From a virus, in IMG/VR virus record IMGVR_UViG_3300027805_000055, positions 1-31,795 of that record: a stretch of DNA of 31,795 nucleotides; one strand, 5' to 3'. Positions within the stretch are counted from its first letter, which is position 1. Every line of letters starts with the position of its first letter. The position numbers and the translations under genes were made by a program. Shown one piece after another: positions 703 through 15,612 of the stretch. Below the pieces are notes generated by a model. The model had not been told where the DNA came from and ran no database searches. It saw only the letters and a list, made by a program, of their open reading frames with translations.

Positions 703-783
703 AATTTGGCACTTGCGTTCCTGGGACTGCAACTGCAAAATCCACGACACGTTTTCCCACCCCGCCTCAGAAAGGCCCTACAC

Positions 784-1203
784 ATGACTGTAAACGTCTC
801 GATTACCTTCCCGACGATTGAGGACGCTGTCGCGTTCCTCGCGGGAAAGCCGCAGATGCCGGCCGTGGTCGCTGTGACCGCGCCGGCCCCCACATCAGCC
901 CCCACATCAGCCCCCGCATCAGCCCCCACACCGGCCCCCACCCCGGCGAAGGCGGCCGCTGCCCCGAAGGCGGCCCCCGCGCCTGCCCCTTCGGCGCCTA
1001 CTGCCGAGGAGGCCCCGCCCCAGGCCGCTGCGCTCGACTTCAAGCGCGACGTGGTTGAGGCCCTGCGCGGCTACAGCAAGGCCGTGCCCGAGGCCGACTT
1101 CCGCGCCTACATGTCGAGCCTGGGCGCGGCCAAGGTCAGCCTGATCGAGCAGATGCCCGACAAGTGGGCCGACATCGTTGCGCACTGCAAGGCCAATGGC
1201 TGA
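784..1203 (+). CDS. Phage protein with a Pro/Ala repeat linker, first gene of the replication operon
   Basis: 139 residues from the ATG at 784, which has GAAAGG upstream; the frame extends to 706 but without a better site. The N-terminal 25 residues look like a small folded segment (MTVNVSITFPTIEDAVAFLA). A low-complexity Pro/Ala/Ser/Thr linker follows at about residues 33-80, encoded by tandem 12-bp DNA repeats. The C-terminal 50 residues are helical (RDVVEALRGYSKAVPEADF, later DKWADIVAHCKANG). The layout of two small domains on a flexible tether suggests an adaptor or binding protein rather than an enzyme. Its stop overlaps the nuclease start (ATGGCTGA), so the two are translationally coupled. 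I do not recognise the family. Confidence 0.8.
   Translation: MTVNVSITFPTIEDAVAFLAGKPQMPAVVAVTAPAPTSAPTSAPASAPTPAPTPAKAAAAPKAAPAPAPSAPTAEEAPPQAAALDFKRDVVEALRGYSKAVPEADFRAYMSSLGAAKVSLIEQMPDKWADIVAHCKANG
886..945 (+). repeat. Five tandem 12-bp repeats inside the linker
   Basis: Five back-to-back 12-base units start at 886, 898, 910, 922 and 934. The first two are identical (GCCCCCACATCA) and the rest differ by 1-3 bases. They encode four-residue Ala-Pro-Thr/Ala-Ser/Pro units of the Pro/Ala linker. Copy number probably varies by slippage. Confidence 0.85.
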
Positions 1204-2521
1204 GTCCGTCATCAAGCTGCACGCGAAGCGCGGCCCCTCGGGCGCGCCTCGCTGGGCCTTCTGCCACGCATCCCCGGAGCGCGAGGCTGCCTCCCCCAAC
1301 AAGGGTGGCGGCTCGGCTGCAGATGCGGGCACCGTGACGCACGACCTGGGCGAAGGTGTGCTCAAGCACGGCCCCGCCTATCTGGAGCAGCGCAAGGGTA
1401 TGCGCGGCATGGTCGATGAGAAGGGCCAGACCACCTACCACGCGGCCGACGACCTGTTCGCCGCCTTCGGCCATCTGGTCGATGACGAGATGGTGGACTG
1501 CGTCGAGAGGTACGTGGATCACATCAAGAAGGTCGCGATGGGTGGCGTGCTCATGGTCGAGCAGCGGCTGTCGATCGAGCACATCACCGGAGAGCGCGGT
1601 GCCAAGGGCACCAGCGATGCGGTGGTGCTCTTTCCTGACGAGATTTTCGTCGGCGATCTGAAGGGTGGCTACCAGCGGGTGCTGGCCTCGTACCCGCTGA
1701 CCGGCTACCGCTACGAGCACGCGCCCGATGCGATCAAGCGGGCGATGCTGCTGCGCGACGACGTGCGCATGCCCAACCTGCAGGCCCTGATGTACGCGGA
1801 GGCCGCGCGCCACCAGTACGACGCGGATGGCACCCGCTTTAAGCGTGTGCGCCTGAGCATCATTCAGCCCCGGCTGAACCATGTCGATGAGCACGTCATG
1901 GAGATCGCCGAGTTCCGCGTCTGGGTCCAGTGGGTGAAGGAGCAGGCGCACCTGAGCCACCAGCCCAACGCCCGCGCGCTGGTAAGCGAGAGCACCTGCC
2001 AGTGGTGCCGTGCCTTCCCGTGCGAGGATGCCAAGGCGGCTGCCCTGCAGACGGCCCTGGACGACTTCGAGGACGCGCCGCGCGACATCAGCAAGATCGA
2101 CCTTGCAGAGGCTGCGCGGCTCGTGCCGGTCATCCGACAGTTCTGCGACTCGGTCGATGCCGCGGTGCGCGAGCAGTTGACCGCGGGGCGCCCTGTGGCG
2201 GGCTTCAAGATCGTCGAGGGTGACCTGGGCGACCGTAAGTGGGCCGACGACACCGCGGTGCGCAGCACCCTGGCTGGCATCGGGCTCAAGCCTGAGCAGT
2301 ACCTCAACAGCAAGACCATCTCCCCGGCCCAGGCCGAGAAGCTGGTCATTGGCAAGCGTGCCTCACCCAACCGGGTGATCACAAAAGAGCAGTGGGAGTC
2401 CATCCAGACCCTCATCGCACCCCGCTCCGTTGGAGCACCGAAGGTCGTACCCGACAGCGACCCTCGTCCACCTATGGCCACCGATCACTTCGGTGACGAC
2501 GTGTCGGATTTCTTCAACTGA
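1196..2521 (+). CDS. DUF2800-type RecB/Cas4-like nuclease with probable Fe-S cluster
   Basis: 441 residues from the ATG at 1196, overlapping the previous stop. Motifs match DUF2800 phage proteins of the PD-(D/E)XK RecB-like superfamily: H49 in AGTVTHDLGE, E122 in VEQRLSIEH, D141 in GTSD, D154-L-K156 in VGDLKGG, and the QALMYA helix near residue 199. Four cysteines sit as in Cas4/AddB nucleases, one early (C23) and a cluster C268-x2-C271-x4-C276, so a 4Fe-4S cluster is likely. Such nucleases resect or process DNA ends during phage replication and recombination. The C-terminus is acidic and ends DDVSDFFN, resembling the tails of the SSB and of the protein at 6878. DUF2800 next to an Enc34-type SSB is a known phage cassette. 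Confidence 0.85.
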   Translation: MAESVIKLHAKRGPSGAPRWAFCHASPEREAASPNKGGGSAADAGTVTHDLGEGVLKHGPAYLEQRKGMRGMVDEKGQTTYHAADDLFAAFGHLVDDEMVDCVERYVDHIKKVAMGGVLMVEQRLSIEHITGERGAKGTSDAVVLFPDEIFVGDLKGGYQRVLASYPLTGYRYEHAPDAIKRAMLLRDDVRMPNLQALMYAEAARHQYDADGTRFKRVRLSIIQPRLNHVDEHVMEIAEFRVWVQWVKEQAHLSHQPNARALVSESTCQWCRAFPCEDAKAAALQTALDDFEDAPRDISKIDLAEAARLVPVIRQFCDSVDAAVREQLTAGRPVAGFKIVEGDLGDRKWADDTAVRSTLAGIGLKPEQYLNSKTISPAQAEKLVIGKRASPNRVITKEQWESIQTLIAPRSVGAPKVVPDSDPRPPMATDHFGDDVSDFFN

Positions 2522-2537
2522 CAATCGAAAGCGAAAC

Positions 2538-3101
2538 ATGAAAGTAGTCATCAAGCGTGCGCGTCTGGCGTTTGCGCAGATTTGGGAACCCAAGTCCTTC
2601 AACGGGTCGGGTGAGCCCCGTTGCTCGGCCTCGATCATCATTGACCCCAAGACCCAGAAGGAAGAGGTGGACAAGGTCGTCGCGGCTATTCAGGACGTTG
2701 CCAGCGAGAAGTGGGGCGCCAAGGCCGGTGACGTGCTCAAGACTCTCAAGGCCAAGGGCGACATTTGCCTGCACGACGGGGCCACCAAGGGCGAGTACGA
2801 CGGGTTTGAGGGCAAGGTCTACGTGAGCGCAGCCAACAAGGCGCGCCCTGTCGTGGTGGACCGTGACAAGAGCCCGCTGACGCAGCAGGACGGCAAGCCC
2901 TACGCAGGGTGTTTCTGCGACTTCAGCATCGACATCTGGCCCCAAGACAACCAGTACGGTAAGCGGATCAACGCCAAGCTGCTGGCCATCCGCTTCTACG
3001 AAGACGGGCCCGCGTTCTCGGGTGGCACCTCGTACTCGGAGGCTGATTTCGACGACGAGGACGACGTGGCCGACAACAAGGCTGATTCTTTCTTTGCCTG
3101 A
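2538..3101 (+). CDS. Single-stranded DNA-binding protein, Enc34 type (DUF2815)
   Basis: 187 residues starting MKVVIKRARLAFAQIW at the ATG at 2538, which lies 16 bases after the nuclease stop; the frame continues upstream but only antiparallel to coding sequence. The sequence fits the DUF2815/Enc34 ssDNA-binding family, an OB-fold protein like T7 gp2.5: conserved RLAFAQIWEP and CSASIIIDP near the N-terminus, and DGKPYAGCFCD and INAKLLAIRF further on. The last 22 residues are strongly acidic and end ADSFFA, the equivalent of the SSB C-terminal tip that recruits polymerase and repair partners. It should coat ssDNA during phage replication, together with the polymerase and helicase downstream. 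Confidence 0.87.
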   Translation: MKVVIKRARLAFAQIWEPKSFNGSGEPRCSASIIIDPKTQKEEVDKVVAAIQDVASEKWGAKAGDVLKTLKAKGDICLHDGATKGEYDGFEGKVYVSAANKARPVVVDRDKSPLTQQDGKPYAGCFCDFSIDIWPQDNQYGKRINAKLLAIRFYEDGPAFSGGTSYSEADFDDEDDVADNKADSFFA

Positions 3102-3113
3102 GGAGGGCACAGC

Positions 3114-3392
3114 ATGTTCGAGATCAAGAAGGGCATCCCGGTACCCACCACCGGCCTGGGCGGCAGGCCCGGGGTCTACCCGTTCGCTGACATGGTCATT
3201 GGCGACTGTATCGACATCCCGGTCGGTGACAGCAAGCCTGATGCCGTCGTGCGCCGCGTGCGCGTGGCCTCGGCGACGTGGCGCAAGCGCAGCAAGGCTG
3301 ATTGCGGCTTCTCTGCGCGCGTGGTCACCGAGGGAGGCGCCATGAGCGTTCGCTTGTGGAAGACCCACCCGCGCCCCGCCAAGGGCGCCTGA
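3114..3392 (+). CDS. Small conserved phage protein (92 aa)
   Basis: 92 residues starting MFEIKKGIPVPTTG at the ATG at 3114, with GAGGAG about 9 bases upstream and only 12 bases after the SSB stop. The pattern of basic start, GIPVP, a Gly-rich turn, YPFADM and IGD recurs in small phage proteins encoded beside replication genes. The middle is basic (RRVRVASATWRKRSK) and the C-terminus has VRLWKTHPRP, so nucleic acid contact is plausible. No catalytic residues are evident. It is the last gene before a strong terminator at 3395-3425, so the sub-operon 784-3392 can be expressed on its own. Function unknown. Confidence 0.8.
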   Translation: MFEIKKGIPVPTTGLGGRPGVYPFADMVIGDCIDIPVGDSKPDAVVRRVRVASATWRKRSKADCGFSARVVTEGGAMSVRLWKTHPRPAKGA

Positions 3393-3394
3393 GC

Positions 3395-3425
3395 AACGTC
3401 CCCCGGGTTCTCCGGGGGCGTTTTT
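3395..3425 (+). terminator. Rho-independent terminator
   Basis: CCCCCGG (3400-3406), loop GTTCT, CCGGGGG (3412-3418), extended by ACG/CGT around a bulged T, then a run of five T at 3421-3425. It sits 3 bases after the stop of the 3114 gene and splits the plus-strand operon between the SSB and polymerase parts. Confidence 0.85.
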
Positions 3426-3428
3426 GCT

Positions 3429-3450
3429 GAGAGGTGGTGTGTCACCTCTC
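3429..3450 (+). promoter_or_regulatory. Hairpin just upstream of the 3458 start
   Basis: GAGAGGTG (3429-3436), loop GTGTGT, CACCTCTC (3443-3450): a perfect 8-base inverted repeat that follows the terminator directly. It contains the only purine-rich Shine-Dalgarno-like segment (GAGAGG) near the next gene, so folding could control its translation. There is no T-run, so it is not a second terminator. Confidence 0.5.
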
Positions 3451-3457
3451 ATCAAAA

Positions 3458-3763
3458 ATGGACTCTGACTTTGAACCGCTGTTCGGCGGCGAGACCTACG
3501 ACGAGGCGCGTGACGGTGGGCGCCTGTTCGCACAACTCCGAGACGTGTTTAACCTCATGCAAGACGGCCAGTGGAGGACGCTGCCCGAGATCAGCGAACG
3601 GCTAGGCCACCCACCGGCCAGCGTGAGCGCGCGTCTGCGCGACTTCCGCAAGGACCGCTTCGGCGGCTTCACGGTTGAGCGGCAGTACCTGCGCCGCGGC
3701 CTGTTCACCTACCGGCTGCACACCGACTTGCGCAGCATCGAAAGCTATTTCTTCGATGTCTAA
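3458..3763 (+). CDS. Winged-helix DNA-binding protein
   Basis: 101 residues from the ATG at 3458 (MDSDFEPLFGGETYDEA). A GTG at 3434 is possible, but it lies inside the hairpin arm. Residues 28-70 read as a winged helix: LRDVFNLMQDGQWRTLPEIS, then ERLGHPPASVSARLRDF as the recognition helix, then RKDRFGGFTVERQYL as the wing. The same helix-turn-helix with wing is seen in small phage proteins that bind origins or act as regulators. The C-terminus (SIESYFFDV) carries an acidic/aromatic tip. The stop overlaps the polymerase start (ATGTCTAA), so the two are coupled and the protein may act with the polymerase, for example at an origin. That link is inference. Confidence 0.75.
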   Translation: MDSDFEPLFGGETYDEARDGGRLFAQLRDVFNLMQDGQWRTLPEISERLGHPPASVSARLRDFRKDRFGGFTVERQYLRRGLFTYRLHTDLRSIESYFFDV

Positions 3764-5555
3764 GCCGATCGCTGCGGTGGATATCGAGTGCTACCGAAAC
3801 TACCTGCTCGTGCAGTTCAAGCGTCTGGACACGGGTGCGGTGCGCTACTTCGAGATGTACGAGGACCGGCCGCTCGATTGCAGCACCGTGCTCGCCACCA
3901 TGCGCAAACTCACGCTGGTCACTTTCAACGGCACGAAGTACGACATGCCGATCCTGGGCCGTGCGCTCAAGGGCGCGACCTGTGCCGACCTCAAAGAGAT
4001 GAGCGACGAACTGATCGTCGAGGGCACGCCCCACTGGCAGATCACGCGCCGCTATGAGTGCGAGTTGCCGGTGCTGGATCACATCGACCTGATCGAGGTG
4101 GTGCCTGGGTTCGTGAGCCTCAAGGTCTACATGGGCCGCCTGCATTGCAAGACCATGCAGGACTTGCCCATCGAGCACGATGCGCTGATCGATGCCGAGC
4201 AGCGCGAGGTGCTGCGTCGCTACTGCGAGAACGACCTCGACGGCACCCTGGCGCTTTACCGCAAGTTCGAGGCACAGATCACGCTGCGCGCGGCGATGAG
4301 CGCGGAGTACAAGCAAGACCTACGCTCGAAAAGCGACGCGCAGATTGCCGAGGCTGTCATCCGCGAGAAGGTGGCCGCGATCACTGGGGTGCGCGTGAGC
4401 AAGCCCGAGGTCAAGGCCCGCACCTTCCGCTACCGGGCGCCCGACTTCCTGCGCCGCGCAGGGCCGATCACGGCCAGCGTGGTGAAGATGGTGACAGAGA
4501 CTGACTTCGTGGTCGAGGAAAACGGCTACGTCAAGATGCCTGAGACGCTGGCCAAGGCCCGCATCCACATAGGGCCGAGCAGCGTCTATCGCATGGGCAT
4601 TGGCGGCCTGCATTCGAGCGAGCAGTCCAAGGCTCACATTGCGACCGACGACCTGTTGATCTTGGATCGTGACGTAGCGTCCTACTATCCCGCGATCATC
4701 ATCCAGACTGAGTTGTACCCGCAGCACCTGGGCATGGATTTCCTGAGCGTCTACCGGGACATCCGCGATACGCGCATTGCGGCCAAACGCGCCGGCCAGA
4801 AGACCCAGGCCGACACGCTGAAGATCGTGCTGAACGGGAGCTTCGGCAAGTTCGGTTCACCGTACTCGGTGCTGTACAGCCCCGACCTGTTGATCCAGAC
4901 GACGCTCACCGGCCAGCTTGCCCTGCTGATGCTGATTGAGTGGTTGGAAGCGGTGGCCGTGCCGGTCGTCTCAGCCAACACCGATGGGATCGTGCTCACC
5001 TGCATGACCGACCGCTACGACGATGCGCTCGCTGTCTTCAAGGAGTGGGAGCAGGCCACGGGCTTTGAGACCGAGGAGACGCGCTACCGCGCTTTGTTCT
5101 CACGGGACGTGAACAACTACATCGCGCTGAAGGACAAGGGTGGAGTTAAGTTGAAGGGCGCCTATGCGGAGCCCGAGCCCGTGGCCTCCTCCTGGCCCAG
5201 CCCGCACAACCAAATCTGCGTCCAGGCCGTCTGCGACTACCTCGAATGGGGCTGGCCCATCGAGCACACCATCGAGTCGTGCCGTGACATCCGACAGTTC
5301 CTGACCGTGCGCACGGTGACGGGTGGGGCACTGTGGAAGGGCGAGTACGTGGGCAAGGCCGTGCGTTGGTACACGGCCACAGGCGAGACCGCGCCAATGC
5401 TCTACAAGAAGAACGGCAACAAGGTGCCGCGCAGCGACAGTTGCCGGCCGCTCATGGCGCTGCCTGACGAGTTCCCCACCGACGTGGACTTTGCGGCTTA
5501 CATCCGCGAGGCCAACGACATCCTGCATGACATTGGAGCAAGCCGTGCTAACTGA
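3756..5555 (+). CDS. Family B DNA polymerase with 3'-5' exonuclease
   Basis: 599 residues from the ATG at 3756 overlapping the previous stop. Exonuclease motifs: ExoI D9-I-E11, ExoII N58-x4-D63 (FNGTKYD), ExoIII Y156-x3-D160 (YCEND). Polymerase motifs: A at D306 (DVASYYP), B at K356 (KIVLNGSFG), C as ANTDG with D410. A and B are only 50 residues apart and B and C 54, leaving no room for the TPR1 or TPR2 insertions of protein-primed (phi29-type) enzymes. Motif C has Asn where most family B enzymes have the first Asp of DTD; I believe this is usual for a phage clade, from memory. It should be the replicative polymerase. In other phages that carry DUF2800 plus Enc34-SSB the polymerase is often family A, so this combination is notable. 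Confidence 0.9.
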   Translation: MSKPIAAVDIECYRNYLLVQFKRLDTGAVRYFEMYEDRPLDCSTVLATMRKLTLVTFNGTKYDMPILGRALKGATCADLKEMSDELIVEGTPHWQITRRYECELPVLDHIDLIEVVPGFVSLKVYMGRLHCKTMQDLPIEHDALIDAEQREVLRRYCENDLDGTLALYRKFEAQITLRAAMSAEYKQDLRSKSDAQIAEAVIREKVAAITGVRVSKPEVKARTFRYRAPDFLRRAGPITASVVKMVTETDFVVEENGYVKMPETLAKARIHIGPSSVYRMGIGGLHSSEQSKAHIATDDLLILDRDVASYYPAIIIQTELYPQHLGMDFLSVYRDIRDTRIAAKRAGQKTQADTLKIVLNGSFGKFGSPYSVLYSPDLLIQTTLTGQLALLMLIEWLEAVAVPVVSANTDGIVLTCMTDRYDDALAVFKEWEQATGFETEETRYRALFSRDVNNYIALKDKGGVKLKGAYAEPEPVASSWPSPHNQICVQAVCDYLEWGWPIEHTIESCRDIRQFLTVRTVTGGALWKGEYVGKAVRWYTATGETAPMLYKKNGNKVPRSDSCRPLMALPDEFPTDVDFAAYIREANDILHDIGASRAN

Positions 5556-6090
5556 CGTAATGATCGATCTGGAGACGATGTCGTCTCGCCCAGACGCTGC
5601 TATTGCGGCGATCGGGGCTGTGGCCTTCGACATGAAGAACATGGCCATCGGTGAAAGCTTCTACACCACAGTCGATCTGCAGTCCTGCGAAGACCTGGGC
5701 CTGCACTTCTCAGCCGGCACGGTGTCGTGGTGGATGCGACAGTCCGAGCAGGCGCGCCGCGACGTGCTCGGTGGCGAGCAGCTTGACCTGATCACCGCGA
5801 TGACCGGCTTCAGCCTGTGGTTGCAAGAGCACTGCGTGAGCCAGGGCCACCTCAAGGTGTGGGGCAACGGCGCCAACTTCGACCCGGTGATCATGGAGTC
5901 GGCCTACCGCGCCTGCAAAGAGCCGGTGCCCTGGCAGTTCTGGAACGTCCGTTGCTTCCGCACGCTCAAGGGCATGTACAACATCAAGATGCAGGAGCGC
6001 GCCGGCACGCACCACAACGCACTCGACGATGCCATGCATCAGACCCAACACATCTTCCACATTCGCAGGACGCTCCGTGGCAACACCTGA
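5545..6090 (+). CDS. DEDDh 3'-5' exonuclease (RNase T-like fold)
   Basis: 181 residues from the GTG at 5545, which overlaps the polymerase end and has TTGGAG 6 bases upstream. DEDDh motifs: D8-L-E10 (VMIDLETM), N108-x3-F112-D113 (GNGANFD), and H157-x-A159-x2-D162 (HNALDDA), so all acidic ligands and the catalytic His are present. The pattern SAGTVSWWMRQS matches the phage exonuclease VIII / Rv2179c-like group that degrades DNA or RNA from 3' ends. Because the polymerase already has its own exonuclease, this one probably works on primers, mRNA or recombination intermediates rather than on proofreading. It overlaps the VRR-NUC gene by 14 bases. Confidence 0.85.
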   Translation: MLTDVMIDLETMSSRPDAAIAAIGAVAFDMKNMAIGESFYTTVDLQSCEDLGLHFSAGTVSWWMRQSEQARRDVLGGEQLDLITAMTGFSLWLQEHCVSQGHLKVWGNGANFDPVIMESAYRACKEPVPWQFWNVRCFRTLKGMYNIKMQERAGTHHNALDDAMHQTQHIFHIRRTLRGNT

Positions 6091-6352
6091 AGGCCAAGTC
6101 AAAGGCAACCTCGTGCGGCGCATTCGTGCGCTGGGCGGCGAGGTGCGGTTCGTGAAATGGATCGGCCGCAACAACGCGCCCGACACCCTGGTGCTGCTCG
6201 ACGGCATCCCGCCCACCTTCGTCGAGACCAAGGCTCCAGGCTTGCGTCCGCGGCCAGCACAGGAGCGCGAGTTCGAGCGTCTGCGGCACTACGGCTTTCG
6301 TGTGCTCGTGATCTCCACCCCAGAGGAACTGGACTATGAGTTTCCGCTTTGA
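6077..6352 (+). CDS. VRR-NUC domain nuclease
   Basis: 91 residues from the GTG at 6077 with AGGA 7 bases upstream. It is a stand-alone VRR-NUC domain: E5 in the first helix (ATPEGQVKGNL), the APD motif with D36, E50-T-K52 as the (E)xK pair, and Q62 after a basic loop, then a final strand RVLVIST. This is the PD-(D/E)XK nuclease module found in FAN1 and in phage single-domain proteins, which act as structure-specific (Holliday-junction-like or flap) nucleases and usually sit next to an SNF2 helicase. Length is typical for the phage form (about 90 aa). Its stop overlaps the next gene. Confidence 0.88.
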   Translation: MATPEGQVKGNLVRRIRALGGEVRFVKWIGRNNAPDTLVLLDGIPPTFVETKAPGLRPRPAQEREFERLRHYGFRVLVISTPEELDYEFPL

Positions 6353-6569
6353 CGAGGTTCACCCGGCCACGCGGCTGTGGTGGGCCCAGCGCGAGCAGTG
6401 TGAGACGTGCGCGCACTGCACGCTCTACGAGGGCCGCGGGGGCGAGGGTGTGATGCTGTGCTCTGCGACGTTCGTCGGCGCCAAGATCGCTTACTGCATC
6501 GACGCGCGCTCCGATGACAAGCCGTGCGGGCCGGATGCCCGTCTCTTCACTCCCAAAGGTCAGTCGTGA
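6336..6569 (+). CDS. Small Cys-rich protein, probable zinc binder
   Basis: 77 residues from the ATG at 6336 inside the end of the VRR-NUC gene. Six cysteines: C22-x2-C25-x2-C28, C42, C54 and C64 (QCETCAHC, MLCSATF, YCIDAR, CGPDARLF). This spacing suggests one or two structural metal sites. Similar short Cys proteins ending CG-x-DA-x-LF-x-P occur in phage replication clusters. It could be an adaptor for the nuclease-helicase pair it sits between, but no function is known to me. The stop overlaps the next start as GTGA. Confidence 0.8.
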   Translation: MSFRFDEVHPATRLWWAQREQCETCAHCTLYEGRGGEGVMLCSATFVGAKIAYCIDARSDDKPCGPDARLFTPKGQS

Positions 6570-6874
6570 CGCAGTCTTACCGCGAGATCGAGCTTCAGAT
6601 CATTCGCTGGGCCGAGGCCCGCAAGATCATTTCCAACAGCACGCCCCAGGCCCAGTTGCTGAAAGCCTTCGAGGAGATGGGCGAACTGGCCAGTGGCGTG
6701 GCCAAGAAGGATCACGCGGCCACGGTCGATGCGGTGGGCGACGTGATGGTGTGTCTCATCAACATGTGCGCGCTGCTCGACATCGACCTCGTGCGCTGCA
6801 TGGAGCACGCCTACGACCAGATCAAGGACCGCAAGGGCACCCTGACCCCGCAAGGCATTTTCATCAAGGAGTAA
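6566..6874 (+). CDS. MazG-like NTP pyrophosphohydrolase
   Basis: 102 residues from the GTG at 6566 in a GTGA overlap, with AAAGG 5-9 bases upstream. The all-helical MazG signature is present: E36-E37-x2-E40 (FEEMGEL), then D55-x3-D59 (VDAVGDVMV), the Mg2+ ligands of the active site. MazG-like phage enzymes hydrolyse (d)NTPs to monophosphates, clearing aberrant nucleotides or lowering alarmone signals; the substrate here is unknown. The final part DQIKDRKGTLTPQGIFIKE is typical of the phage subfamily. It lies within the replication operon. Confidence 0.85.
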   Translation: MTQSYREIELQIIRWAEARKIISNSTPQAQLLKAFEEMGELASGVAKKDHAATVDAVGDVMVCLINMCALLDIDLVRCMEHAYDQIKDRKGTLTPQGIFIKE

Positions 6875-6877
6875 ATC

Positions 6878-7195
6878 GTGAGCAAAGAGATCACCGTTGT
6901 CCATATTCAAACGGCACTGCTGGTGCCGATCACCGGGCAGTTCATCGTGGATAAGCTCGGCATCAAGCCGGTGCGCAAGGAGAAGCGCGCCATGTACTGG
7001 CGCACCGAGGACTTCACCAACATCTGTCAGGCCCTGATCCAGCACATCACCGCGGCGCGCAACGCGGACTTCTCGGCGATCAGTGCCCAGACCGCGAAGA
7101 AGGCAACCCCGGTCGAGTCGGCCCCCAAGCTGTTCGACGACGCAGACGACGCAGACGACGCAGTCGGCGGCGAGGTCGAAGACTTCTTTGCGTGA
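6878..7195 (+). CDS. Small protein with SSB-like acidic tail (105 aa)
   Basis: 105 residues from the GTG at 6878, with a perfect AAGGAG overlapping the previous stop. Residues 1-62 form a compact domain (ITVVHIQTALLVPITGQFI, then KRAMYWRTEDFTNICQ) with no enzyme motif. An Ala/Pro linker follows, then an acidic tail of three Asp-Asp-Ala units and VEDFFA. The tail mirrors those of the SSB (ADSFFA) and the DUF2800 nuclease (SDFFN). It may therefore be a second ssDNA- or replisome-binding protein. The helicase start overlaps its stop (GTGATG), so the two are coupled. The family is not recognised. Confidence 0.78.
   Translation: MSKEITVVHIQTALLVPITGQFIVDKLGIKPVRKEKRAMYWRTEDFTNICQALIQHITAARNADFSAISAQTAKKATPVESAPKLFDDADDADDAVGGEVEDFFA
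7136..7162 (+). repeat. Triple 9-bp repeat encoding Asp-Asp-Ala units
   Basis: GACGACGCA occurs three times in a row, perfectly, in frame with the gene at 6878. It builds the acidic tail just before VEDFFA. Confidence 0.9.
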
Positions 7196-8622
7196 TGCAG
7201 TTCAACTCGCGCGATTACCAACGGGCGCTGCGCGACTTCGCGCTCGACCGTCCCCGCTGTCAGTGGTGGGCCGGCACCGGCACGGGCAAGACCGCAGCGG
7301 CGCTGTCGCTGTTCGACCATCTGCGACTGTTCGACGAGGCCGAGCGGTTGCTGGTGGTCAGCACGAAGCGCATCGCGCAAGGGGTCTGGTCACGCGAGGT
7401 GAGCAAGTGGGAGAACTTCGCACACCTGTCGGTGGCCACCGCGGTGGGCACCCCCGGCCAGCGCAAGGCCGCGATCATGGCCCAGGCCGACATCACCACC
7501 ATCAACTACGACAACCTGCCCTGGCTCGTGCAGACGATGGGCGATGACTGGCCCTGGGACATGGTGATCGCCGACGAGAGCACCAAGCTCAAGGGCCTGC
7601 GCATCGATCTGCGCACCTCCCCCACCGGCAAGACGGTGATGCGCAAGAGCGGCGGCAGTGAGCGCGCGATGCACCTTGCTCGGGTCGCGCACAAGCGCGC
7701 CCGCCGCTGGGTCAATTTGACCGGCACGCCCGCGGCCAACGGTCTGATCGACCTGTGGGGGCAGGCATGGTTCGTCGATGCCGGCCAGCGGCTCGGCCGC
7801 TCGTTCACGGCCTTCAAAGAGCGGTGGTTCCGCTCGGTGCAGGTGGGCGCCGATGCCTATGCCGTGCGCCTGGAACCGCAGCCCTGGGCGGATGCGCAGA
7901 TCAAGGCGGCCCTGGCCGACATTGCCCTGACCATCGAGGCCAAGGACTATTTTGATTTGCCGCCGACGCTGACCAACCGCATCGAGGTGACTCTGCCGGC
8001 CACGGCTCGTGCCCAGTACGAGTGCATGGAAGGCGAGTTCTTCGCCCAGGTTGGCGGCGCCGACATCGAGGCCGTGAGCGCAGGCGCCAAGAGTATGAAG
8101 TGCCGGCAGTTGGCCAGCGGCGCGATCTATAACACGTACGGCAACTGGTATTTCGCGCACGATGCCAAGATCGAGGCCCTGGGCGACCTGATCGAGAGCC
8201 TGAACGGTGAGCCGCTGATCGTCGCTTACCAATTCAAGAGCGACCTCGAACGGCTGTGCGCCGCCTTCCCCCAGGGGCGCGTGTTCGATGACAAGCCCAA
8301 GACCCTGGCCGACTTCTGCGCCGGCCGCATCCCGCTGCTTTTCCTGCACCCCGCCTCAGCCGGCCACGGTATCGACGGCATGCAGGACGCCTGTCACCAC
8401 ATCTGCTGGTTCAGCATGACGTGGAACCTTGAGGAGTACGAGCAGGCGATCGAGCGCATCGGGGCCACGCGCCAGATGCAGTCCGGTCGCCGTCGCACTG
8501 TGCATGTCCACCTGCTGATCGCGGAAGACACGATCGAGGAGGACATGGTCGAGCGCATCGAGACCAAAGCCTCGGTGCAGCAATCCATTCGCAACGCAAT
8601 GAAGAAGCGAGGACCGAAGTGA
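7195..8622 (+). CDS. SNF2-family DNA helicase/translocase
   Basis: 475 residues from the ATG at 7195 (GTG at 7192 is an alternative, in frame) in a TGATG overlap. Superfamily 2 motifs in order: an upstream YQ, Walker A G27TGTGKT33, the DEAH-box equivalent D127-E-S-T, motif III L175-T-G-T-P, motif V G390-H-G-I-D394, and motif VI ERIGATRQ at 420-427 with Arg fingers R421 and R426. This is the short phage SNF2 helicase that accompanies VRR-NUC and DUF2800 genes. It probably remodels or unwinds DNA during replication or recombination. No separate DnaB-type helicase is in the window. Its stop overlaps the next start as GTGA. Confidence 0.9.
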   Translation: MQFNSRDYQRALRDFALDRPRCQWWAGTGTGKTAAALSLFDHLRLFDEAERLLVVSTKRIAQGVWSREVSKWENFAHLSVATAVGTPGQRKAAIMAQADITTINYDNLPWLVQTMGDDWPWDMVIADESTKLKGLRIDLRTSPTGKTVMRKSGGSERAMHLARVAHKRARRWVNLTGTPAANGLIDLWGQAWFVDAGQRLGRSFTAFKERWFRSVQVGADAYAVRLEPQPWADAQIKAALADIALTIEAKDYFDLPPTLTNRIEVTLPATARAQYECMEGEFFAQVGGADIEAVSAGAKSMKCRQLASGAIYNTYGNWYFAHDAKIEALGDLIESLNGEPLIVAYQFKSDLERLCAAFPQGRVFDDKPKTLADFCAGRIPLLFLHPASAGHGIDGMQDACHHICWFSMTWNLEEYEQAIERIGATRQMQSGRRRTVHVHLLIAEDTIEEDMVERIETKASVQQSIRNAMKKRGPK

Positions 8623-13480: not shown

Positions 13481-15612
13481 AGGTGCGTCTCCAGTTCGAG
13501 GGTCTGCCACACGTCAGGCCAACTCACATCGACGTTGGTGGAGCGCACGATGCCCAGGCGCGAGGTGACCCCGTCGCTGTACTGCACGAACCGGCCCGGG
13601 TCGATTACACCCGTGCTGTTAAGCACCGGCAGGCGCAGGCGCACCATCGCTTGCTTGCCGGTGTCGGCCAAGATGGACAGGCCGCGCTGGCGCGCTGCGG
13701 CAGCGGCCGTGATCAGCGGATCGGTGACCATCTGCGCCGGTAGGTCGCCTGCCGTACCCTCGCGCGTCACCTGACCCAGCACACCCTGCGAGGTGCCGCT
13801 CACGAACACCCGGTTGTAGTCGGGCTTGTCCAGCCACTCGATGCCTTCCTGCACCGTGACTGAGGACGGCAGCGAGTACTCGGGGGTGACCTCACTGGCC
13901 CAGTCCCACGGGGCCACGGGGTAGCGCAACAGCACGCTCACCGACTGAGCCACTGGGTCGGGCTTGAGATAGGCCCCCGCAGCCCCTGCGATCGCGGTGA
14001 GACCGTCGATGTAGGTGCCGCGCACGTTGAAGGCGTCGGCCGGCACCAGCCAGTCGTCGAGTTGCCAATCGACCGACCAGCCCAGCGGCACGTTGTTGAA
14101 GGTCAGCACGTCGGCCATCAACTGCTGCGCGGTGCGCTGCTGCGCGTTCGCGAACGTCAGCACAGGCGCGTAAGGCGCCGACAGCAGTGCCGTCTTGCCG
14201 CGGCCGGTGACGCGGATGGTGGAGTTGCCGAAGGAGCGGTCGCGGCCGATCTTCTCGGCCAGCACCCGGTACAGGTTGCCGTTGATGTTCGCTTCCAACT
14301 CCACCGGCCCCGTGCTCGTGGGCTGCAGGGCATCGAGCGCACTGGCCGGCAGGCTTGCGCTGAAGCCCCAGGTCCACGAGTCCGCGTCGATGGACAACGA
14401 CAGGCTGACAGTGGGCAACATGACGTTGCCACTGACGCGACGCAGCCAGACATCATTGATCACGACGTAGACACTCCTGATGGGCACGACGATTGTCGTG
14501 GTTGGCGGGCGGCCCGGGTTCGTCTCGCAAAAGAACAGCAGATTGGTATTGCTGCTTGCGTTGGCCTCGAAGACCAGATTGCCGCTCGGGATGTAGCAGG
14601 GATCGATCGGCGGCTCGGGCGGGACGACGATGGTCTCGATACCCGCGGGCGGCCGCATCGCTTCCTGATAGAAGGCTTGCCACGCCTTGTGGAAAGCATT
14701 GGCGGTCTGGTGTGGGCTGCTGTAGCGGCGCACGACCTGCGTCGCACTCTGAAACGAGGACTGCAGCCGGCCGCGACGGTCGCGCAGCATCTCTTGGAAC
14801 GGGCTGTAGGTTGACGCGCGCCGGTCGATGCCTTCCTGAAACGACGACTGCAACGAGATGCGGCGATCGCGCAGGCTCTCTTGGTGCGGCGCCTGCACGC
14901 CCCAGTTCCCAGGCTTCATCGCCTCGGTGTGCGGAGCGGTCAGCGGCGGGTTGTCGAGCTTGAGCCCCGCTTGATGCTTGGCCTGGGTGAGGTTCGACAG
15001 GATCGCCGCGGTCTGGTGCTGGGCCTGCCACGCAGCGTTGTACGGCAGGTTGTCCTGAGTGATGTGCTCCCAGCCGAGTTCGGTCTTGTTGGCGATCTGG
15101 TGCGGGTGAGAAGTCTGCCCGACCAGTGGGCGCGCGGTGTCGCTGTTGTATTCAACCTCGCTCACCAACGTGAGGGGCGGCAGAGTGCCGGCGAGTGTGA
15201 CTTCTACCGCTGCCCCGATACTTACCGTGACCGTCAGCGGCGGCAACGAGCCTGATAGCGTCAGTTCGGCCAGCGGCGCGACACTGGCCGCGAACGTCAG
15301 CGGGAACGTACCGTTCAGCGTGAGGTCTACGCTGTCGGAAGTAATCGATGCGCTGACAGTCAGCGGCGGCAATGACCCGCTGAACGTGACCTCGACGAGG
15401 GGTAGGACGCTCGCGGAGAACGTCAGCGGCGGCAGAGTGCCGCTGAAGAAAACTTCTGCGTAAGGTTCGACGGTTGCCGCAAATGACAGCGGCGGTAGCC
15501 CGCTGGCAAATGTGACGTTTACGTCTGCTGGGACATATGCAGGGACACCAAAAACCAAATCCGCTGGCTGGGCCAGCGGAGGGTTTTGAAAGACAAGATC
15601 AGAGTCGTTCAC
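13477..15612 (-). CDS. Tail hub/tip protein with N-terminal beta repeats
   Basis: 711 residues from the GTG at 15612 (GTGA overlap with the gene upstream). Three parts are visible. Residues about 30-155 are six beta repeats of about 20-24 residues around a core such as SGSLPPLTVSAS. Residues about 165-320 have a loose repeat with HQ or FQ pairs (PHQIAN, QHQTA, KHQAG, SSFQEG, SPFQEM). From about 350 on there is a beta-rich hub region (VYVVINDVWLRRVSGNV, LYRVLAEKIGRDRSFG, TYIDGLTAIAGAAG, PEYSLPSSVTVQEG) like gp27/gpJ-type baseplate hubs. It should close the tail tube and carry receptor-binding proteins. The N-terminal repeats look like an added module. Confidence 0.75.
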   Translation of the reverse strand: MNDSDLVFQNPPLAQPADLVFGVPAYVPADVNVTFASGLPPLSFAATVEPYAEVFFSGTLPPLTFSASVLPLVEVTFSGSLPPLTVSASITSDSVDLTLNGTFPLTFAASVAPLAELTLSGSLPPLTVTVSIGAAVEVTLAGTLPPLTLVSEVEYNSDTARPLVGQTSHPHQIANKTELGWEHITQDNLPYNAAWQAQHQTAAILSNLTQAKHQAGLKLDNPPLTAPHTEAMKPGNWGVQAPHQESLRDRRISLQSSFQEGIDRRASTYSPFQEMLRDRRGRLQSSFQSATQVVRRYSSPHQTANAFHKAWQAFYQEAMRPPAGIETIVVPPEPPIDPCYIPSGNLVFEANASSNTNLLFFCETNPGRPPTTTIVVPIRSVYVVINDVWLRRVSGNVMLPTVSLSLSIDADSWTWGFSASLPASALDALQPTSTGPVELEANINGNLYRVLAEKIGRDRSFGNSTIRVTGRGKTALLSAPYAPVLTFANAQQRTAQQLMADVLTFNNVPLGWSVDWQLDDWLVPADAFNVRGTYIDGLTAIAGAAGAYLKPDPVAQSVSVLLRYPVAPWDWASEVTPEYSLPSSVTVQEGIEWLDKPDYNRVFVSGTSQGVLGQVTREGTAGDLPAQMVTDPLITAAAAARQRGLSILADTGKQAMVRLRLPVLNSTGVIDPGRFVQYSDGVTSRLGIVRSTNVDVSWPDVWQTLELETHL
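15160..15530 (-). repeat. Six degenerate ~63-bp coding repeats
   Basis: On the plus strand the core recurs near 15167, 15230, 15293, 15353, 15419 and 15485, each a variant of GTCAGCGGCGGCA followed by a CCG-rich segment. Spacing is 60-66 bp. They encode the SGxLPPLT beta repeats of the hub protein. It is protein-coding duplication, not a CRISPR. Confidence 0.8.

Follow-up and report, generated by a model that had tools for sequence, protein, structure and literature searches.

Three unrelated proteins with a common C-terminal end

Why should three proteins of one virus, which have nothing in common in their bodies, finish in nearly the same short acidic peptide? The question is raised by the IMG/VR virus record IMGVR_UViG_3300027805_000055, a viral record of 31,795 bases that is referred to here as the window. 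An initial annotation had described an acidic C-terminal tail capped by Phe-Phe on a DUF2800 nuclease, on a single-stranded DNA-binding protein (SSB) and on a protein encoded from position 6878 (the 6878 protein), and had proposed that the tails dock these proteins on a single receptor in a tail-organised replisome. The common ends are confirmed here, and similar tags recur on unrelated proteins of more than a hundred related phages, where their last residues are respelled together, genome by genome. The tails probably serve as docking motifs whose evolution is coupled to that of a single receptor encoded by the phage.

The genes and tails of the window were verified by translation, which yields SDFFN, DSFFA and EDFFA at the ends of the nuclease, the SSB and the 6878 protein, respectively, as well as the three Asp-Asp-Ala units described for the last of these. 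The range previously given for the system (2455-7195) has its start inside the nuclease gene; the positions that encode the tails are listed in Table 1. The bodies are indeed unrelated: the nuclease belongs to PF10926, its match covering the full length of the profile (1-368 of 368), the SSB belongs to PF10991, and the 6878 protein falls into no family, with no match in Pfam or PHROG. The SSB gene starts with an ATG at 2538, stops at 3101 and encodes the end SEADFDDEDDVADNKADSFFA. The top Foldseek match of the SSB is the Enc34 SSB (5odl; E 4.6e-12, TM 0.72/0.76), and T7 gp2.5 (1je5) is matched at E 7e-7, in agreement with a T7-type OB fold. Phe171, in the internal ADF motif of the SSB tail, is kept in at least 90% of 48 SSBs.

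Of 3060 genes called in related loci, 4 have ends of the form [DES]FF(x)-COOH, and at this background rate the probability of at least three among the approximately 33 genes of the window is about 1.2e-5. The Phe-Phe pairs are encoded as TTC TTC, TTC TTT and TTC TTT, and the flanking codons differ too. In the AF2 models, low order is predicted for the tails of both the SSB and the nuclease: the pLDDT of the SSB is 94-98 in residues 1-160 and 65-69 in the tail, as would suit a flexible acidic extension, and that of the nuclease (mean 87.5) is below 50 in its last residues, 443-447.

Table 1. Features of the window, with the tails of the 6878 orthologues in related loci
Feature	Position	Strand	Tag or end	Basis
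DUF2800 (PF10926, Cas4/RecB-like) nuclease	1178-2521	+	tagged	Pfam E 7.6e-59; PHROG 69 exonuclease
Nuclease tail, ATDHFGDDVSDFFN	2477-2518	+	SDFFN	translation
Enc34/T7 gp2.5-type SSB	2538-3101	+	tagged	PF10991 E 1.1e-39
SSB tail, SYSEADFDDEDDVADNKADSFFA	3030-3098	+	terminal DSFFA, internal ADF motif	translation
6878 protein, ~65-residue body and multi-motif tail	6878-7195	+	tagged	family known so far only from close relatives
6878 protein tail, KLFDDADDADDAVGGEVEDFFA	7127-7192	+	EDFFA	translation
6878 orthologue tail in L198, DAEFFGDTTIDEANGEDMFDDTQPGDDDMFE				
6878 orthologue tail in L214, ADDLFGEGGDDDLFAENNDDLFA				
6878 orthologue tail in L262, NPFGAAADPFGAAPDPFAAAPAAPDLSNLFG				
Gene upstream of the nuclease, Chi gp44 / Enc34 ORF3 family	706-1203	+	untagged	profile search E 1e-21 to 3e-23
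Small DUF7303-like open reading frame	3114-3392	+	untagged	E 4.9e-13 to L214:5618-5977
Family-B DNA polymerase, PHROG 1252	3756-5555	+	untagged	PHROG E 2.9e-186
SNF2-type helicase	7192-8622	+	untagged; MKKRGPK	PF00176 and PHROG 62

Conservation and matched spelling in related phages

Two sets of related loci (designated L with a number) were compared. The first comprised 160 loci gathered via the SNF2 helicase, with the SSB and the nuclease both present in 121 genomes; the second was mostly fetched via the family-B polymerase of the window and shares about ten genomes with the first. In loci without annotation, genes were called mechanically.

Two elements recur in the tails of the SSB and the nuclease, an internal [DE][DE]F motif and a terminal hydrophobic cap. 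Of 67 dereplicated SSBs, 48 have the former within their 28 C-terminal residues (shuffled mean 14.6), as do 26 of 67 nucleases (shuffled mean 4.5); no helicase or family-A polymerase has it in that segment. The spelling of the cap follows lineage, with DLV, ALI, DLA, SDLF and PLFA in proteobacterial phages and DxFL[ASGN] in phages of Firmicutes and Actinobacteria, in which the nucleases usually carry the internal motif alone. A strict acidic-plus-cap rule selects 72% of the SSBs and 29% of the nucleases, versus 0.8% of the other forward-strand genes. As a separate observation, the reverse-strand VirE-type primase of L002-L004 (near 721-3742) ends in KDDFENV..., which is the internal motif of the SSB and nuclease of those loci.

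Within a genome, the ends of the nuclease and the SSB resemble one another more than in shuffled pairings (0 of 2000 at 95, 80 and 60% SSB dereplication), and in 11 of 20 capped proteobacterial-phage genomes the two proteins share the same last hydrophobic pair, compared to 3.6 expected (0 of 5000, 60% SSB dereplication). The result was repeated in the second set, where nuclease-SSB similarity is 8.52 versus 4.17 (standard deviation 0.78; 25 genomes dereplicated at 50%; 0 of 3000). A lack of conserved tails among relatives, named in the initial annotation as grounds for refutation, was looked for and not observed: the tails are conserved in kind, and their spelling shifts jointly from genome to genome. 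Phe-Phe, the cap described in the initial annotation, proves to be just one local spelling; elsewhere the ends are LV, LI, LA, LF, FLx, DEV, DEL or DLLG.

The nearest relatives of the window by polymerase, L214 (63%) and L198 (59%), encode as many as five tagged proteins, and in some of these a D-D-L-F motif is repeated. In L198 the five include the nuclease (ADFF), the SSB (GDFFN) and a protein of 56 residues (DLFDDSNDEFFD), the remaining pair being the 6878 orthologue (EDMFDDTQPGDDDMFE) and the protein that follows it (EEDLFA). The four of L214 are the SSB (TDSFF), the orthologue of the small window protein at 3114 (NNDDMFSA), the 6878 orthologue (DDLFGEGGDDDLFAENNDDLFA) and the protein encoded next (SSDLFFG); its nuclease ends in GDLFQE. 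In L206, RdgC ends in NNDLF, like the SSB (SDLF) and the nuclease (DDLF). No reliable homologue of the 6878 protein was detected in phage records, viral contigs or 401 genomes of one bacterial family, and its orthologues surfaced only via polymerase-based scans (L198, E 9e-18; L262, E 1e-16; L214, E 4e-13). All of them have repeated D-x-F-like motifs in their tails, and the 6878 protein is thus a member of a small family with repeated-motif tails and not an isolated orphan. In L262, D-P-F motifs are seen in the SSB (6740-7483) and, in repeated form, in the 6878 orthologue (14941-15345); these tails are non-acidic and rich in Ala and Pro, and that of the SSB continues GAPASTNPGNMPW past its last motif.

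Distribution of the tag in Casjensviridae and other phages

In Casjensviridae the tag extends to many more proteins. In phage Chi, nine proteins have clear DEV or DDV ends: chi_007, RdgC, chi_027, the primase, gp44, the DUF2800 nuclease, the SSB, the terminase small subunit (TerS) and chi_058. The [DE]EV ends of Enc34 are found in its primase, ORF3, DUF2800 nuclease, SSB, TerS and ORF17. Serratia phage Smarc1 has acidic ends closed by Leu in the primase, the gp44 homologue, the DUF2800 nuclease, the SSB, the helicase (EAFDDDDL, in the homologue of the untagged window helicase), TerS, RdgC, Dcm and others. Ruegeria phage V18 employs DLLG or DILG (helicase-primase, gp79, DUF2800 nuclease, SSB and gp55), and Klebsiella phage N133 employs DDLV (SSB, TerS and a capsid-adjacent protein). 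The replisome of the initial proposal is thus too narrow a frame, since the terminase small subunit and the capsid-adjacent protein of Casjensviridae are tagged as well.

Each genome keeps largely to its own spelling. Acidic ends closed by Val occur in 10 of the 73 annotated Chi proteins (a count that includes one doubtful member, a helix-turn-helix protein ending in ECEDNV) and those closed by Leu in none; in Smarc1, Leu closes 12 of 73 (a few of them weak) and Val one (P about 1e-14 in each case). When seven orthologue groups were permuted across nine genomes, the observed score was 115 compared to 35.7 (standard deviation 6.2; 0 of 20000). All four Val codons are used in the Chi tails, and the tags were therefore not recently copied as DNA. 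In the capsid-adjacent protein the tag closes a Lys-rich sequence (KKGGKAGAADEEV, KSAKKSNDDLV); the shared element is therefore the terminal residues and not general acidity, and bulk acidity was ruled out as the signal. Such ends are absent from the terminase small subunit and FI of phage lambda, taken as a control, which shows that proteins at these positions do not carry the tag in general. Phages that share a host species may use two codes: DEV in N98 and DLV in N133, both phages of K. pneumoniae, and DEV in Redjac and EEM in Kokobel1, both phages of P. stuartii.

The capsid-adjacent protein is a small protein encoded directly 3' of the major capsid gene (L010:23902-24195, L190:17801-18085, L181:2987-3250 and L183:18935-19207), with a short N-terminal domain joined through a Lys-rich linker to the C-terminal tag of its own genome. 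It occupies the position of lambda FI. RdgC likewise carries the tag of its own genome in separate lineages (L206:6158-7147, NNDLF; L171:12567-13640, DDDEV; L181:32838-33911, DDEL; L185:4631-5803, DDDEV).

A possible mechanism and its receptor

The distribution of the motif among unrelated proteins and its coordinated respelling are direct observations; that one code is carried by several non-homologous proteins accords with the initial proposal, whereas docking on a single receptor is still inference. In the mechanism that we favour, the flexible C-terminal tails would bear docking motifs, with a copy at the terminus and, in many cases, further copies inside the tail, and a single phage-encoded receptor within the replication, recombination and packaging machinery would recognise every tagged protein of a genome. 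The pocket of this receptor would differ between phage lineages, and as it changed all tagged proteins of the genome would change their last residues jointly, giving DxFF/DxLF in the clade of the window and DLV, ALI, DFLA, DEV, DEL or DLLG elsewhere.

Our first, still tentative, choice for the receptor is the OB-fold core of the SSB, in which case the nuclease, RdgC, the primase, TerS and the others would mimic the SSB tail. The SSB core leads the candidates because in crystals of the Enc34 SSB the tail sits in a groove of the neighbouring SSB; in addition, removal of the last 21 residues allows that protein to bind double-stranded DNA and changes its DNA preference (PMC5686142). The code of phage Enc34 is DEV. 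The polymerase or another replisome protein is a possible but weaker candidate, and the small, conserved protein encoded upstream of the nuclease (706-1203), a possible scaffold or receptor whose family is tagged in Casjensviridae, is an unlikely one, as is some other protein altogether. The profile match that places it in this family involves a sequence of partly low complexity.

The broadest reading would extend a single, lineage-specific address code to up to a dozen unrelated proteins, engaged in replication, recombination, DNA methylation, terminase function (TerS) and capsid-adjacent roles in many tailed phages, which one co-evolving receptor would gather into a DNA factory linking copying to packaging. 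This reading is conceivable but rather doubtful. A limited search of the open-access literature yielded no prior description of a multi-protein C-terminal tag.

Several results weigh against a single co-evolving receptor. Matching in the first set is clear but not universal, with the last pair identical in only about 55-60% of capped genomes, and shared ancestry is not fully removed by the shuffles, although the signal survives dereplication at 50-60%. Tags are gained or lost among orthologues, as in the untagged small protein at 3114 of the window and its tagged L214 counterpart, and the hydrophobic cap is missing from several nucleases (in Firmicutes phages, Kokobel1 and PLY284). In some SSBs of this family the tail closes in poly-Arg, so that its charge is reversed (APRKRRRR / RRERRRR in L177, Escherichia phage TheodorHerzl, and L083). 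Finally, neither distance-matrix comparison nor per-column association with code class singled out a receptor among the SSB, nuclease, helicase and polymerase, whose gene trees are strongly correlated. The SNF2 helicase, named earlier as a candidate, gained nothing specific in its favour from these tests.

Comparison with known systems and other explanations

Docking through C-termini has precedents in T4 and T7. In T4, the polymerase gp43, gp33 and gp55 dock on the clamp gp45 by interchangeable hydrophobic and acidic C-termini (PMC2988020), and in T7 the acidic tails of gp4 bind the polymerase gp5 (PMC12593628). Taken as analogues, these systems prove the principle of docking. As in T4, several proteins of the phages described here have hydrophobic and acidic C-termini that are nearly identical. 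Unlike in T4, the motif is absent from the polymerases of the window (HDIGASRAN) and of Chi-like phages (YFYRKD), and it appears on the SSB, nuclease, RdgC, primase and packaging proteins. No sliding clamp was seen among the replication genes examined, the window being a fragment and no search having been aimed at clamps.

A T7-like arrangement would make the replicative DNA polymerase the receptor, with the tails of the SSB and its partners bound to basic patches on it. The SSB of the window is of the T7 type, with an acidic tail and a terminal aromatic residue, and in both systems a second protein has the same end residues (DGDF in T7 gp2.5 and DTDF in gp4, with a common terminal DF); moreover, LF/FF/MF codes are commoner with family-B polymerases (10 of 52, versus 3 of 117). 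Two proteins are tagged in T7 compared to up to ten or more here, the constant partner of the SSB is the nuclease and not the helicase, which in the window ends without the tag, and the window polymerase is of family B and not the family A of the T7 receptor. We regard a polymerase receptor of this kind as unlikely. The LV, DL, LLG, FLx and LA codes are each found with both polymerase families, by which the earlier suggestion of a polymerase receptor is weakened and polymerase family is rejected as the sole setter of the code; the code is also carried by TerS and the capsid-adjacent protein.

A receptor supplied by the host, such as the beta sliding clamp, or mimicry of host SSB tails is considerably less probable. 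The DLF/DMF ends in the clade of the window look similar to the final residues of clamp-binding motifs in bacteria, as DDFDDI does to DFDDDIPF, the terminus of host SSB. Like clamp-binding motifs (QLxLF, PIP box), the tags are short, near-terminal hydrophobic peptides present on many proteins and, presumably, directed to one hub; they differ in their acidic context and in lacking the conserved Gln, whose place at the first position of the beta-clamp motif is taken by V, A, N, T, E or G in the LF/FF tails inspected by eye. With the C-terminal peptide of bacterial SSB (SSB-Ct) they share a disordered tail, an acidic run and a terminal hydrophobic residue, yet a PF end, as in the I/L-P-F terminus of SSB-Ct, is present in none of the family SSBs listed, and SSB-Ct is one tail with many receptors, as opposed to many tail-bearing proteins with a lineage-specific spelling. 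DEV, DEL and DLLG fit neither motif, and the codes differ among phages that share a host species.

Slightly less probable again is that each tail acts on its own as an acidic DNA mimic and blocks binding to double-stranded DNA, the similar ends reflecting convergent chemistry. Most tagged proteins handle DNA, and the gain of double-stranded DNA binding by the truncated Enc34 SSB (PMC5686142) agrees with such a role, which leaves unexplained both the genome-specific terminal residues and the tags that close Lys-rich sequences. The location at the very C-terminus would also suit a stability or degradation signal read by a protease, but the concentration of tags in DNA-metabolism and packaging proteins, the internal copies and the differences among phages of one host make this very improbable. 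Chance, or DNA copying between genes, is contradicted by the permutation and binomial results and by the differing codons, and deserves hardly any weight.

Other genes of the window

The polymerase of the window ends without a tail and has the family-B motifs DRDVASYYPAII, KIVLNGSFGKFG and NTDG; its best match in the PDB, a weak one, is polymerase II. Most relatives have a family-A polymerase in this neighbourhood, which points to a polymerase swap within a conserved module. The winged-helix-like protein encoded at 3434-3763 (the 3458 protein of the initial annotation), whose end SIESYFFDV had been listed as a weaker match, was excluded as a fourth member: it has no acidic run, its Phe-Phe is not terminal, and no tailed homologue was present in any locus fetched.

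Implications for phage biology

If the tag is a docking code, the C-terminal sequence alone would suffice to place phage proteins of unknown function in the DNA machinery, candidates being the 6878 family, chi_007, chi_027 and several small open reading frames. The prediction is directly testable, since Chi and Enc34 are culturable and a crystal structure of the Enc34 SSB exists. The joint respelling of the tags would then constitute a natural record of co-evolution between a receptor and its peptides, and the code would suggest how replication, recombination and packaging stay joined in phages without an obvious clamp.

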